Assembly: GCA_022821085.1 (NCBI GenBank)
Contig: JAJEEG010000006.1
Coordinates: forward strand, 939,330-1,003,329
Direction: 5' to 3'
DNA length: 64,000 bases
DNA from: Candidatus Latescibacterota bacterium
GTDB taxonomy: Bacteria > JAAXHH01
The notes under the pieces were generated by a model. It ran no database searches. It was not told the DNA's origin and was given only the letters and a program-made list of their open reading frames with translations. Made by a program: the position numbers and the translations under genes. Of the stretch, positions 16,221-21,792 are shown piece by piece. Numbering within the stretch: position 1 is the first letter of the stretch; each line of letters begins with the position of its first letter.

Positions 16221-17570
16221 GTGAAAATGCGCGATTCAAAGCCCGCGGGCACCTCGCCCGACCATCCGTTTTCAACCAGACCCCACGCCACGCTCGTACG
16301 GCTTTCCTTCCCCGTTCTGCTCTCGCTCATCGCCGAACCGCTTACCGGGCTGGTGGACACCGCCTTCATCAAGCGGCTGGGTGCGGAGTCGCTGGCCGCC
16401 CTCGGGGTCGGTGCCGTGTCGCTTTCAGGACTCTTCTGGATCTTTAACTTCCTCGGGATCAGCACCCAGACCGAAGTAGCCCAGGCCGAGGGCGACAACG
16501 ACCGGCCCCGGTCCGTGTCCATGAGCAGCCTGGGCATCATCATGAGCACGGCCTTCGGGCTGCTGATCATCGTCCTCGGCGTTCCGCTCACCTCGTACCT
16601 CGCCACGCTGCTCGGCGCCTCGGGTGCGATACACGAGGGGGCCGTGGACTACATCTTCTGGCGCTGGCTGGGCGCGCCCGGCATTCTGATCACGCTGACG
16701 GCCTGCGGGGCCTTGCGAGGACTCCAGGACATGCGTTCGCCGCTCTGGATCGCCCTCGGCATCAACGGCATCAATATCGTGCTCGACCCGATCCTCATTT
16801 TTGGGGCTGGTCCGGTGCCCGCCCTGGGCATCACGGGTGCGGCGGTGGCCAGCGTCGTCGCGTACTGGATCGGCGCAGCCTGGTCGATCTGGATCGTCAG
16901 GCGAAAGCTGGGCTGGTCCTTCCAGGTAAAATTCAGTGCGGTCCGTCGGCTGTTGCGCGTCGGCTCCGATCTCTTCATACGCACCGGCGTACTGAACCTG
17001 TTTCTCCTCCTGACGACCCGCGAGGCCACGCACGGAGGCGCCGACATCGGGGCCGCCCACCAGGCGATTCGGCAGGTCTGGATGTTCGGCACGTTCGTGC
17101 TGGACGCCCTGGCCGTCACGGGCCAGAGCCTGGTGGCCTACTTCCTCGGCGGCGACAAGATCAGGAGCGCCCGGAAGGTGGCGCGTATCGTCTGCCACTG
17201 GAGCGTGTGGTCGGGATGCCTGCTCGGATTTGTGCTGTGGATGGGCAGCGGGGTGGTGATCGATCTGCTCGTACCCGCGACCGCGGTAGCCTATTTTCAT
17301 TCGGCGTGGATCATCGCCGTCGTCGTACAGCCGCTGAACGCTCTGGCCTTCGCCACCGACGGGCTCCACTGGGGCTCGGGGGACTACCGGTATCTGAGAA
17401 ACGCCGTGGTCCTCGCCACCGGCGTAGGTGCGGCCGGACTGCTCGCCGGCCCCCACGCCCTGGACTGGATCTGGATGATGACCGCGGTCTGGATCGGCGT
17501 CCGGGCCGCGCTCGGCACGATACGAATCTGGCCGGGTGTGGGGAACAGTCCGTTCAGGGTGATGGGGTGA
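16221..17570 (+). CDS. MATE family multidrug/organic cation efflux transporter
   Basis: The 449-aa protein has about 12 hydrophobic segments and MATE signatures: LVRLSFPVLLSLIAEPLTGLVDTAFIKRLGAESLAALGVG near the start and the second-half copy beginning VRRLLRVGSDLFIRT. GALRGLQDMRSPLWIALGINGINIVLDPILIFG is strongly MATE (DinF subgroup). It would export cationic compounds using Na+ or H+. The start may be GTG at 16221 or ATG at 16227; neither has a clear ribosome site. It is convergent with the PIN gene, 20 bases away. Confidence 0.92.
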   Translation: MKMRDSKPAGTSPDHPFSTRPHATLVRLSFPVLLSLIAEPLTGLVDTAFIKRLGAESLAALGVGAVSLSGLFWIFNFLGISTQTEVAQAEGDNDRPRSVSMSSLGIIMSTAFGLLIIVLGVPLTSYLATLLGASGAIHEGAVDYIFWRWLGAPGILITLTACGALRGLQDMRSPLWIALGINGINIVLDPILIFGAGPVPALGITGAAVASVVAYWIGAAWSIWIVRRKLGWSFQVKFSAVRRLLRVGSDLFIRTGVLNLFLLLTTREATHGGADIGAAHQAIRQVWMFGTFVLDALAVTGQSLVAYFLGGDKIRSARKVARIVCHWSVWSGCLLGFVLWMGSGVVIDLLVPATAVAYFHSAWIIAVVVQPLNALAFATDGLHWGSGDYRYLRNAVVLATGVGAAGLLAGPHALDWIWMMTAVWIGVRAALGTIRIWPGVGNSPFRVMG

Positions 17571-17590: not shown

Positions 17591-17980
17591 TTAAATCTTC
17601 GATTCCAGGATTGAGCTAAATCCAGTGTCAAAGGTCTTAACGTCGCCGATACCTCGACGTTGGCAACTTGCCCAGTGGCATAAGTCCCGTGACTGAAGCG
17701 TAGGAAAACGTTCGTGCATTTGGTGGGCAAGGTACACGTCGTCGTCCTCCAGCGGCCAGACATCTATGTCCAGGTCCGCTATAAGTCTCACTGCTGTTTC
17801 AAACGTCGGAAGGCGGTTCTCGGCGAGATAGACATGCAGTAGTTCCTGCAACACTTCCGCGGAAGTGCATAATTGATCGCGGTTGTGGATAGACGCTCGA
17901 AAGAACTCCGACGCTTGCGCTTTTAGTGTATGCTCCTTTCCAACCGCGTACATGAATACGTTGGTGTCGACAAAAATCAT
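17591..17980 (-). CDS. PIN domain ribonuclease (VapC-like toxin)
   Basis: The 129-aa protein has the PIN acidic residues: MIFVDTNVFMYA (Asp 5), SAEVLQELLHVYL (Glu about 45), LQSRDLCHWASCQRRG (Asp about 98) and VKTFDTGFS (Asp about 117). Such proteins cut RNA and are held in check by an antitoxin. Its start overlaps the stop of the 331-aa gene upstream by 4 bases (ATGA), so the two are translated together, the arrangement of toxin-antitoxin pairs. Codon and base use is lower in GC than the flanking MATE gene. Confidence 0.85.
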   Translation of the reverse strand: MIFVDTNVFMYAVGKEHTLKAQASEFFRASIHNRDQLCTSAEVLQELLHVYLAENRLPTFETAVRLIADLDIDVWPLEDDDVYLAHQMHERFPTLQSRDLCHWASCQRRGIGDVKTFDTGFSSILESKI

Positions 17981-18972
17981 GTTTTTGGAGTTCCGCGTCC
18001 TTTCGACTGTCTGATTACATCAAGATGTTCTTCCCAGTCGGGTTCCTTATCGGGACCGGGGAGATCACCGCAACTTTCAAGCAGACTGTCCAGTTTGGCA
18101 AGTTTCTCGACCGCTTCCTCTTCGGAGAGTATGAAGTTCTTTCTCTGGGTGTGGAGTTCCTCAAGCCAGGTACCGAATTCACCGTGGCGTTCCCGTTTTT
18201 TATGGTCGAAAAATCCCTCCGCACATCTAATCTTATCAAACAGGGTGTATGCCATCCCTGCAATGCTCGTGAGATAGTAGTATTCTTGACCTTCATAGGT
18301 GGAAATTGGGTACTCGGTTCCCTTAGCTGCATACCGCCTGAAATTTATGCCGATCGCTTTATCAAATCTTCGCTCATCTTCGTTAGAGGCTTCTCCGAAT
18401 ACCCCTTCCAGCCAGTTGTTTTCCGGAATCGATCCCGATATGCTTTTTTCGTTCCCCGATTTGTCACCATAAGGGATAACAACGCAACGTTCGATTTCAA
18501 GATCGTATTCCCTGGCACTTGTAAGCATTGTTTGGAGGTTATGTCCAAAGCTCTTTTTTTCCTTGAGATCAATCGGCAATAACCGCTCGTCCTTAAAAAG
18601 CAAGTATGCCTTGAGGCCGAGTTCAATACCATGTAGGAAATTGTAGGCCGTTGTTTGATGGGATTCAGGAAACTGAAGACCGAACGCTTCCTTCCAGTCA
18701 CGGGCCAATTCGTTGCGTCCTATCCTGACGAAATCCTTGCCAAACTCATAAAACTCCTTATGGCCAATCCATTGTCCGCCGATAGAAACGTGGGTGAACT
18801 GGTCTTTGCCCTGACTGTCAATGTGCACATTGTGTTTCAGGTATTCGCGTGCCTCGTCCCGGACCAACATTTTCCGTTGGCCTGTACTGTCGTATAGATA
18901 GAATCGACCGTCTGGATCGCGTTCGATTTTACTGTCTTCTGGTATTTCGAAACTGTGCAGCTTTAATTTCAC
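17977..18972 (-). CDS. Hypothetical protein with HEPN-like segment, partner of PIN protein
   Basis: I do not recognise a named family for this 331-aa protein. A helical stretch, HQTTAYNFLHGIELGLKAYLL followed by KKSFGHNLQTML (residues about 105-155), resembles HEPN domains (helix with ELxLKA, then GHxLxxL), but no clear R-x4-6-H RNase motif is near it. The last 25 residues (DWEEHLDVIRQSKGRG) look like the tail by which VapB-type antitoxins hold PIN proteins. The 4-base overlap with the PIN gene supports an antitoxin role. It could equally be an effector paired with PIN. The gene is AT-richer than its surroundings, suggesting transfer. Confidence 0.6.
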   Translation of the reverse strand: MKLKLHSFEIPEDSKIERDPDGRFYLYDSTGQRKMLVRDEAREYLKHNVHIDSQGKDQFTHVSIGGQWIGHKEFYEFGKDFVRIGRNELARDWKEAFGLQFPESHQTTAYNFLHGIELGLKAYLLFKDERLLPIDLKEKKSFGHNLQTMLTSAREYDLEIERCVVIPYGDKSGNEKSISGSIPENNWLEGVFGEASNEDERRFDKAIGINFRRYAAKGTEYPISTYEGQEYYYLTSIAGMAYTLFDKIRCAEGFFDHKKRERHGEFGTWLEELHTQRKNFILSEEEAVEKLAKLDSLLESCGDLPGPDKEPDWEEHLDVIRQSKGRGTPKT

Positions 18973-19160
18973 TGAGTACCAGCCCCGACTGAGTACCAGT
19001 CCCGTTGGTTTTCTTCATGGAGATAACAGAACCTGCTGTTTATTAAATGTCAACCCGATCTTAGCATTCGTCAATGCTGAATCTGATCGCATGCGCGGTA
19101 AAACATTACGGCACTGAATCATGCTTCGTCATGAATTCGACTTAAAGTTGGTCCGGACAT

Positions 19161-20912
19161 TCAGTTCCACGGAAACGCGAACGTCGGCCGGTTCGTGAAC
19201 CGTTCCATGGCGATCGTGAGCCGGGCGCCGGAACCGGGCGCTAGCCGAAGTTTGAGGTAGTCGCCGGCCACTTCCACGGTCCGTCCGCCTTCTTCCGCCG
19301 CCTCGCTCTGCACGGAAACCGATTTCAACGCGTGCTCCCGGTAGGCACCGCCCTGCACGATGACTTCGGCGGGGTCCACCGGGTTCAGGTTGACCAGCGT
19401 TACCGCCGATCTCGTGTCGCCGACCGTGTCGACTAATGCTGCAACGTTCTCCGGAAGGCCCGGCCTTCGTGCCGCGGGATCGAAATACCGGAACATGCAG
19501 TGCACCGCCTGGGCACGCTTCGGGGCTGGGCCGCCCATAGTCTGCTGAAAGAGTGCCGCGGGTGTCGCAGGATTGACGCCGTTCGTATTGTCGGACAGAC
19601 GCGTGTCCGGCGTCATGGGATCGTTGCGTATCCACTCCACTTTCTCCCGGATCGACGCCAGATCGGACTGCATTGCCTCTTCGGGATACGCGGGATTGTC
19701 GCCGGACACAAAGCGCACCCACGCATCATCGGCGCAACGCGCCCGCGATTCCTCGGTCATCGACCAGTACCAGGTCTCCAGCGCGCCGACGCTGTAGGGT
19801 CCAGGGGTGAAGTTGTACCATCCGTCGTCCCCGTATTTATTGGGGTACACCATCCGGCCGTCTTCTTCCCGGCCGTTTTCGTTAATCAGGTCGATCATCT
19901 CGCTCCACGGTGCCGCGTAGGACCGGTCCCCGGTCAGCATCAGCGCGTGGCTGAAACCCGACAGGCCCAGGTGGATCGTGTCTCGGTGAACGGTCCGGCC
20001 GTCCTGCGGGGCGACGGTCGTGAATCCCCAACCGTAGCACCCGCCGTACCACTTGCCGTCGCAGGCGCCGCCGATGGTCCCGTCCAGCCCGATATTCGTG
20101 GGGATGATGCCGCCGTTGGCCCGGGTGCGCTCGACCCAGGCGTCCACGTATTCCAGGATCCAGTCCCGGTACTTTGCCTCGCCCGTCAGCGCGTACGCGT
20201 TGAAGGCCAGGCCCGTCGCGAGCATGTTGGAGGGATGGTCGCCGATCACGTCGGTGTAGTCTTTGAAATGGCCCAGCATTTCCTCGAAGTTGCGTTCGCC
20301 GTGGGCCAGGACGAAGCGGCCTTCCTCGATGGGATCGCCCGCCCAGTCTATGGCCTCGGCCTTGCGCAACATGGGCCCGCGGCTGCCGTTGAATAGGCTG
20401 CGGATGATCCGGTGTTCCGGGTCGTAGTTCCGCGCCCCGGGATCCTCGTCCATGTAGAACCCGGACCACAGCCGCACCCGGCGCTCGAATTCCTCGGCGT
20501 CCGGGTCGCAGAGGCCCAGGTCACCGAAGACCGACATGCTCTCGCCGTTATGCAGCCAGTCGAACATGACGGGGAATTCCTTGTAGTACATCCCGTCCCG
20601 GCAGAAGGGCACGTCCACCGTCTTCGCCTCGGTGTACTGTTGGATATGGCCGTCCTGCGCCTGGTTGCTCCGGGCGAGCAACGCCTCCGGACCGCCCATC
20701 ATGTAGAGGACCGGCCAGCCGGTCAGGTTTTCGATGGCGTCGTCGGGTCCGTCGTCGCCGCCCCAGCGCGGCACGCAACGCATGTAGCCCCGTTCATCGA
20801 AATACCGATCGTAAAAGTACGCGCAGGCGCGGGCCTGGGCTTTCATGGACTCCTTCTGAAGGAGCGCCCAGGCCGGGGGCGGCATGGGGGTGGTGATGGA
20901 GAGGGTGGTCAT
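19161..20912 (-). CDS. Six-hairpin (alpha/alpha-barrel) glycosidase-like protein
   Basis: The 583-aa protein has no signal peptide and shows repeating helical pairs with aromatic and Gly-rich turns: DERGYMRCVPRWGGDDGPDDAIENLTGWPVLYMMGG, MYYKEFPVMFDWLHNGESMSVFG, LAFNAYALTGEAKYRDWILEYVDAWVERTRANGG and GGCYGWGFTTVAPQDG. This looks like an alpha/alpha-barrel fold of the kind in glycoside hydrolases and polysaccharide lyases, followed by a short beta-rich tail from about residue 500. I cannot assign a family or catalytic residues. The 188 bases before its stop (18973-19160) hold nothing I recognise. Confidence 0.6.
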   Translation of the reverse strand: MTTLSITTPMPPPAWALLQKESMKAQARACAYFYDRYFDERGYMRCVPRWGGDDGPDDAIENLTGWPVLYMMGGPEALLARSNQAQDGHIQQYTEAKTVDVPFCRDGMYYKEFPVMFDWLHNGESMSVFGDLGLCDPDAEEFERRVRLWSGFYMDEDPGARNYDPEHRIIRSLFNGSRGPMLRKAEAIDWAGDPIEEGRFVLAHGERNFEEMLGHFKDYTDVIGDHPSNMLATGLAFNAYALTGEAKYRDWILEYVDAWVERTRANGGIIPTNIGLDGTIGGACDGKWYGGCYGWGFTTVAPQDGRTVHRDTIHLGLSGFSHALMLTGDRSYAAPWSEMIDLINENGREEDGRMVYPNKYGDDGWYNFTPGPYSVGALETWYWSMTEESRARCADDAWVRFVSGDNPAYPEEAMQSDLASIREKVEWIRNDPMTPDTRLSDNTNGVNPATPAALFQQTMGGPAPKRAQAVHCMFRYFDPAARRPGLPENVAALVDTVGDTRSAVTLVNLNPVDPAEVIVQGGAYREHALKSVSVQSEAAEEGGRTVEVAGDYLKLRLAPGSGARLTIAMERFTNRPTFAFPWN

Positions 20913-21077: not shown

Positions 21078-21467
21078 TCAGCCAAGTACCCGGATAGGGC
21101 CCGGATAACTTCCCAACGTCGCGTTGGTCGTCAACAACGTCATCCGCTCGGTCTGTGCCTGCGCCACCAGGATTCGGTCGAACGGGTCTCTATGTATCAA
21201 CGGAAGATGAGTAACCGCTACGGCATGCGCACTCGTGATGGACAGTTCCCTGTAGCCGTTTTCCAACAACGCTCTTCGCAACAGATGCGGATCGACAACG
21301 AAATCATCCCGCTGCAGACCGTGCTTTATGGAAATCTCCCAAAGGGAAGCTGAGCTGAACACCGGGTCGTTGCCTGGATGAATGATCATATCCCTTGCCT
21401 CGGCAGGCAATCGCTGCGGCATGTGCGCAGCCCATAGCAAAACCTGTGTGTCCAACAGAATGATCAC
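21078..21467 (-). CDS. PIN domain toxin, VapC-like (COG3744 type)
   Basis: The 129-aa protein starts MIILLDTQVLLWAA (Asp 6) and has VFSSASLWEISIKHGL (Glu), LPLIHRDPFDRILVAQAQTE (Asp-x-x-Asp) and LLTTNATLG, which define the PIN group paired with Phd-type antitoxins. It is an Mg-dependent RNase by family. Its start overlaps the stop of the antitoxin gene by 4 bases. The region 20913-21077 before its stop holds no gene. Confidence 0.9.
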   Translation of the reverse strand: MIILLDTQVLLWAAHMPQRLPAEARDMIIHPGNDPVFSSASLWEISIKHGLQRDDFVVDPHLLRRALLENGYRELSITSAHAVAVTHLPLIHRDPFDRILVAQAQTERMTLLTTNATLGSYPGPIRVLG

Positions 21468-21709
21468 TGCTCGCCCTCGAAAAGCTTTGCGATTTCTTCG
21501 GCTCCCATCCGATCGAAGTCTTCCGGCACGGAACCCGGACCCTCCAGAAACCCCAGCCGACGTTCGGCGCCATGGTTCTCCGCGTCCACAGAGACGACCT
21601 TGACTGCGGGCTTGCCCGCCCGCGCGATGATAAACGGTTCACCGTTCACGGCATCCCGGACCAGCCTGGACAGGTGTGTCTTTGCCTCGTGCATGTTAAC
21701 GGTTCGCAT
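21464..21709 (-). CDS. Phd/YefM family antitoxin
   Basis: The 81-aa protein begins MRTVNMHEAKTHLSRLVRDAVNGEPFIIARAGKPAVKVV, the Phd/YefM DNA-binding fold; the C-terminal half (EDFDRMGAEEIAKLFEGE) would bind the PIN toxin. I chose the ATG at 21709; earlier in-phase codons fall inside the promoter. A promoter and a perfect 9-base-arm palindrome lie just upstream, so self-repression is likely. Confidence 0.9.
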   Translation of the reverse strand: MRTVNMHEAKTHLSRLVRDAVNGEPFIIARAGKPAVKVVSVDAENHGAERRLGFLEGPGSVPEDFDRMGAEEIAKLFEGEQ

Positions 21710-21769
21710 GGGTCGTTCCCCGAGTTTCAGATCGCATGATCGTATGAGTGGGTTACCGTCTACAGGCAG

Positions 21770-21792
21770 AACTAAGTCCACTTGACTTAGTT
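21770..21792. promoter_or_regulatory. Palindromic operator of the Phd/PIN module
   Basis: Arms AACTAAGTC (21770-21778) and GACTTAGTT (21784-21792) are perfect inverted copies with a 5-base spacer. The site lies 7 bases downstream of the -10 box at 21804-21799, so it covers the expected transcript start. This is where Phd-type antitoxins bind. Confidence 0.65.

Follow-up and report, generated by a model that had tools for sequence, protein, structure and literature searches.

Type II VapBC toxin-antitoxin modules, of which FitAB is an example, pair a PIN toxin with a ribbon-helix-helix (RHH) antitoxin, VapB, whose RHH strand and first helix normally serve in dimerization and operator binding. 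Here we describe a gene pair in the window (the whole 64,000-nucleotide stretch of DNA that was analyzed, from a Candidatus Latescibacterota bacterium) that resembles these modules in its PIN toxin, its antitoxin-first gene order, an ATGA overlap between the two genes and a homologous antitoxin tail. It differs from FitAB, and from the conventional VapBC pair found at locus L006 in the same genus, in having an antitoxin of 331 aa versus about 90, which shows no RHH strand or first helix and instead holds about 255 residues with a HEPN-like domain.

Most, but not all, HEPN members have the RX4-6H endoRNase motif. The domain described here has in common with HEPN domains (PF05168; 4nqf, 1o3u, 1ufb, 1wol, 3o10) the fold and the pattern ELxLKA...GH(D/N)L...RY. 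On the other hand, it falls below the Pfam cut-off, lacks a conserved RX4-6H, has an antitoxin tail attached and has no nucleotidyltransferase partner. The MNT nucleotidyltransferase of HEPN-MNT toxin-antitoxin systems is absent as well, since the partner is a PIN protein and the other neighbors are a MatE transporter and a 583-aa protein. HEPN and PIN also occur together in Swt1, where a HEPN pair is fused to PIN; however, this is a single eukaryotic polypeptide, and no antitoxin tail is described for it (PMC3710099). In the accessible part of their description, the paREP1 proteins link HEPN to an antitoxin-like part, as here, but the fusion is to RHH and that part describes no PIN partner (PMC2701414). 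PanA and other modular antitoxins likewise carry their neutralizing segment on an exchangeable second domain, which in PanA is Panacea, not HEPN (PMC10440598). The "double-ribonuclease" toxin-antitoxin system of Acidovorax was considered as a precedent and set aside, as the accessible part of the source yielded no HEPN-PIN pair (PMC10714953). Within the literature searched, with subscription papers and preprints outside it, we found no description of a PIN toxin whose antitoxin bears HEPN.

We consider it likely that the two genes form a type II VapBC module whose antitoxin is chimeric: a VapB tail would block the PIN RNase, and a HEPN-like bundle would sit where VapB usually has the strand and first helix of RHH. 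A fold normally found in toxins or effectors, HEPN would then belong to the antidote of a PIN system.

Architecture and composition of the gene pair

The putative chimeric antitoxin gene (17977..18972, minus strand) is an open reading frame of 331 codons with a GTG start, and its homologues elsewhere in the genus, in four genomes, are 63-78% identical. It lies directly upstream of a gene for a 129-aa VapC-type PIN toxin (17591..17980, minus strand), whose product matches PF01850 in hmmscan (E 1.7e-16) and has the conserved acidic residues of a PIN domain, with D5, E42, D99 and D118 invariant across all five homologues. As in VapBC modules, the antitoxin gene overlaps the toxin gene: stop and start codons share the ATGA at 17977..17980 (minus strand), and the two genes are predicted to be translationally coupled.

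An earlier note, made from the sequence alone, had placed the PIN start inside the stop of the long gene, taken both genes to be lower in GC than their neighbors and assigned the 331-aa partner to no family. All three observations hold. The GC content is 46.9% in the 331-aa gene and 50.6% in the PIN gene, against 66.0% and 64.7% in the two flanking genes and 62% in the window, and the 331-aa protein has no match in Pfam, NCBIfam, PADLOC, PHROGs or PDB sequences. Nor does it match RHH, AbrB, Phd/YefM or a similar DNA-binding family. Residues 1-49 (18826..18972, minus strand), for which a low-confidence AlphaFold2 (AF2) secondary structure predicts three short strands and a helix, match no family and are left unclassified. 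At its start codon (18971-18999), the 331-aa gene has two copies of ACTGAGTACCAG with a spacing of 17 bp; this 12-bp direct repeat was dropped as a candidate operator because it is absent from the relatives.

Homology of the tail to VapB and its linkage to the toxin

Residues 255-331 (17980..18210, minus strand) form a VapB-type tail that is predicted to neutralize PIN. Its stretch DWEEHLDVIRQSKGRG is conserved, and the tail shares homology with the C-terminal part of a short RHH-type antitoxin found in a sister genome (G012, locus L006). That genome carries, elsewhere than at the site of the present pair, a homologous PIN that is 52-54% identical and is preceded, again with an ATGA overlap, by a short VapB of about 90 aa. 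Over 71 residues, the C-terminal part of this VapB (its last 70 or so residues) and residues 255-326 of the 331-aa protein are 34% identical (E 6e-7), and their alignment score of 110 was reached by none of 1000 shuffles (shuffle maximum 53). The aligned region takes in FSAWLRTAAHMRLEE, which is by position the second RHH helix. For the strand and the greater part of the first helix of the short VapB, the 331-aa protein offers neither a counterpart nor a convincing alignment.

The N-terminus of the short VapB gives weak, sub-threshold matches to RelB-type antitoxin, DUF6290, NikA and Rv0623-like families, most of which are RHH or antitoxin families, and it reads as a ribbon-helix-helix. Neither this VapB nor the PIN has relatives in plasmids or convincing matches in the PDB. 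The same N-terminus (L006:1489-1758, minus strand) also bears a weak likeness to the anti-CRISPR AcrIF25 (E 0.15), which may be due to chance.

Because the C-terminus of the short VapB matches that of the 331-aa protein, while its strand and first helix find no counterpart there, the 331-aa protein is best read, from sequence comparison, as a VapB that has exchanged its DNA-binding strand and first helix for about 255 residues. The earlier note had proposed a VapB-like tail and a large part fused to VapB. The tail is indeed present, but rather than being added to a complete VapB, the large part would stand in for the RHH strand and first helix.

A comparison of two alleles, L002 and L003, shows how the tail relates to the toxin. 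They are 94-100% identical over the upstream region and the N-terminal domain, 65-79% identical over the tail and PIN, and 81-98% identical again towards and in the MatE gene. The breakpoint falls at nucleotides 793-816 of the gene (residues 265-272), and synonymous divergence rises from 0.015-0.03 before it to 0.61 in the tail and 1.13 in PIN. Since divergence jumps at residues 265-272 and continues through PIN, the tail and the toxin travel together. This supports, as a single event and short of proof, an exchange of tail and toxin as one piece in which the HEPN part stayed behind.

The case would thus be one of a toxin-antitoxin pair changing its control part while keeping its neutralizing tail and its toxin. 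One genome pairs this PIN toxin with a short RHH antitoxin; its sister genomes, at another site, pair it with an antitoxin that bears HEPN. The two arrangements offer a ready comparison of whether the domain exchange alters regulation.

The HEPN-like domain and toxin control

Residues 50-254 (18211..18825, minus strand) hold TAYNFLHGIELGLKAYLL...GHNLQTML...RY. Aligned by hhalign with 18 PF05168 proteins of the same phylum, they scored 25.2 with the first two motifs in register, a value reached by none of 300 column shuffles (maximum 23.45). Chunks taken from two unrelated alignments scored 17.0 at most. The similarity is a profile-profile one, as the protein does not pass the PF05168 gathering cut-off (hmmscan: no match).

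The AF2 model of the full-length protein had a pLDDT of 37.6. A motif scan of viral contigs yielded three short proteins that resemble HEPN and match PF05168 weakly, and these remote relatives were added to the shallow alignment used to model the core. As they were picked by a HEPN-like motif, the core model partly presupposes the HEPN assignment, whereas the comparison with PF05168 does not. The core model (pTM 0.62, mean pLDDT 55.6, core helices 70-78) is of moderate confidence and forms the helical bundle expected of the HEPN superfamily. Its best Foldseek match is a HEPN protein (E 0.4, prob 0.98). In VIA-align, the ten best rows are all HEPN domains or HEPN-containing proteins (Csm6), with Z from 10.6 to 6.4 and the first unrelated row at 5.4; the top row is 4nqf (Z 10.6 over 129 residues, rmsd 3.1). 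In helical bundles a Z under about 13 can reflect merely a common arrangement, and the weight here lies in the fact that all top rows are HEPN. Together with the hhalign score, these matches support the HEPN-like helices that had been suspected in the long gene, and structure prediction, proposed as a check and run on the core, returned a HEPN-like fold. We conclude with moderate confidence that residues 50-254 adopt a HEPN-like fold.

No R/H pair at the RX4-6H spacing is conserved in the five sequences. The domain is therefore probably non-catalytic, a dimerization or sensing module, and an RNase role is unlikely. HEPN domains without the motif, such as MtlR, are thought to be non-catalytic RNA binders (PMC3710099).

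Short unannotated proteins with (H)xIELxLKAxL...H(D/N)L...RY were also found on rhizobial plasmids (L081, L083, L084) and viral contigs (L076-L078); they seem to make up a HEPN-like family that scores under the Pfam threshold. L080 was set aside as a chance match.

In the VapBC reading with a chimeric antitoxin, the PIN protein would act as a metal-dependent RNase toxin, and we infer that the last 75 or so residues of the 331-aa protein bind it and block its active site. The ATGA overlap would ensure that the antitoxin is made first and coupled to the toxin. The small N-terminal strand-rich segment and the HEPN-like bundle would be found where RHH has its strand and first helix. The module has then presumably lost its autoregulation through RHH binding to DNA, although residues 1-49 might bind DNA instead. 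HEPN domains often dimerize, as RHH does, and the bundle most likely dimerizes the antitoxin in the role that RHH normally fills; it may also add an input. Such an exchange of RHH for a HEPN-like domain could alter toxin control.

How much the bundle does beyond dimerization divides two versions of this reading. In the simpler one, the pair is a plain addiction module and the HEPN part is a replacement scaffold for dimerization or stability that receives no input, a special case of the chimeric VapBC that we hold to be quite plausible, if somewhat short of an even chance. Besides the dimerizing habit of HEPN, it draws on the finding that antitoxins are modular and that a neutralizing segment alone can suffice, as the bare PanA_Phd-C segment does on a SUMO tag (PMC10440598). 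Nevertheless, the HEPN part contains long invariant stretches (TAYNFLHGIELGLKAY), which exceed what a scaffold seems to need. In the other, the bundle, lacking a conserved RNase motif, would be non-catalytic and would bind RNA or a ligand, thereby setting how stable or available the antitoxin is. More specifically, an RNA or nucleotide signal, arising for instance from phage infection or translation stress, might gate PIN post-translationally in place of DNA-binding autoregulation, a proposal that we regard as tentative.

Distribution and insertion site

Among the genomes searched, the large protein is encoded in five only, all from a single genus: that of the window, G004 (78% identity), G010 (75%), G006 (64%) and G007 (63%). 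Searches of GTDB contigs gave only three relatives, from the same genus. Three of the five genomes have GTDB records labelled as Candidatus Latescibacterota or Gemmatimonadetes MAGs; the homologue set is one of few MAGs. The insertion site is identical in all five genomes, between the 3' ends of the MatE transporter gene (16221-17570, plus strand) and the gene for the 583-aa protein without a Pfam family (19161-20912, minus strand). In four further genomes (G002, G005, G008, G011) the site is empty and the flanking genes lie only 77-97 bp apart.

The low GC of the pair, which suggests acquisition, and its patchy presence at a single site that is empty in relatives would suit a sensor-gated defense system, as would a large non-RHH domain where the DNA-binding part would be. 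HEPN would in that case recognize a product of the phage or a change in RNA and then release PIN, resulting in abortive infection; this too is a special case of the chimeric VapBC. Against it, there is no PADLOC match, the pair adjoins no defense genes (its neighbors being MatE and the 583-aa protein), and no relatives of the 331-aa protein were found in phages, plasmids or viral contigs. Such a system is, in our view, doubtful, and phage defense by the pair, to which the earlier note had tentatively linked it, is speculation.

The PIN gene stands beside the large gene in four of the five genomes, the window's included, and the fifth keeps the first codons of PIN. The earlier expectation that the two genes co-occur elsewhere was therefore supported. 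In the fifth genome (G007) the PIN gene is deleted, with just ATGATCTTC left after the antitoxin overlap. In G010 PIN is intact and the large gene has a stop that disrupts its first 36 or so codons and another near its end; the N-terminal segment may be dispensable, an internal start may be used, or this copy may be decaying. The lost PIN and the stops, taken with the four empty sites, might suggest a decaying remnant with no present function. However, three copies, that of the window among them, are intact, and dN/dS is about 0.1-0.37 in all segments for informative pairs (about 0.1-0.25 in PIN and 0.1-0.3 in the tail). These ratios point to purifying selection on both reading frames and in all their parts, which argues against decay of the window copy, and we consider a remnant improbable.

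If the 331-aa protein is the antidote, as the chimeric VapBC reading holds, the antitoxin is expected to persist without the toxin, as it does in G007, and no PIN of this subtype should stand without a tail-bearing antitoxin, and none was found in the phylum. Although HEPN is usually the toxin in HEPN-MNT pairs (PMC3710099), a role of the 331-aa protein itself as toxin or RNase effector, with PIN as a second effector or antidote, is very improbable given the missing conserved RX4-6H motif, the antitoxin homology of the tail and the persistence of the large protein without PIN, the reverse of which was not seen.

Between the same flanking genes, L048 (G003) and L049 (G009) hold a lone 77-aa RelB/RHH-like ORF with no toxin, and the site between the MatE and 583-aa genes seems to collect antitoxin-type inserts. 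A second toxin-antitoxin pair lies 3 kb away in the window (21078-21781, minus strand), where a Phd/YefM antitoxin (PF02604, 2.3e-11) is followed by another PIN protein (8e-10).
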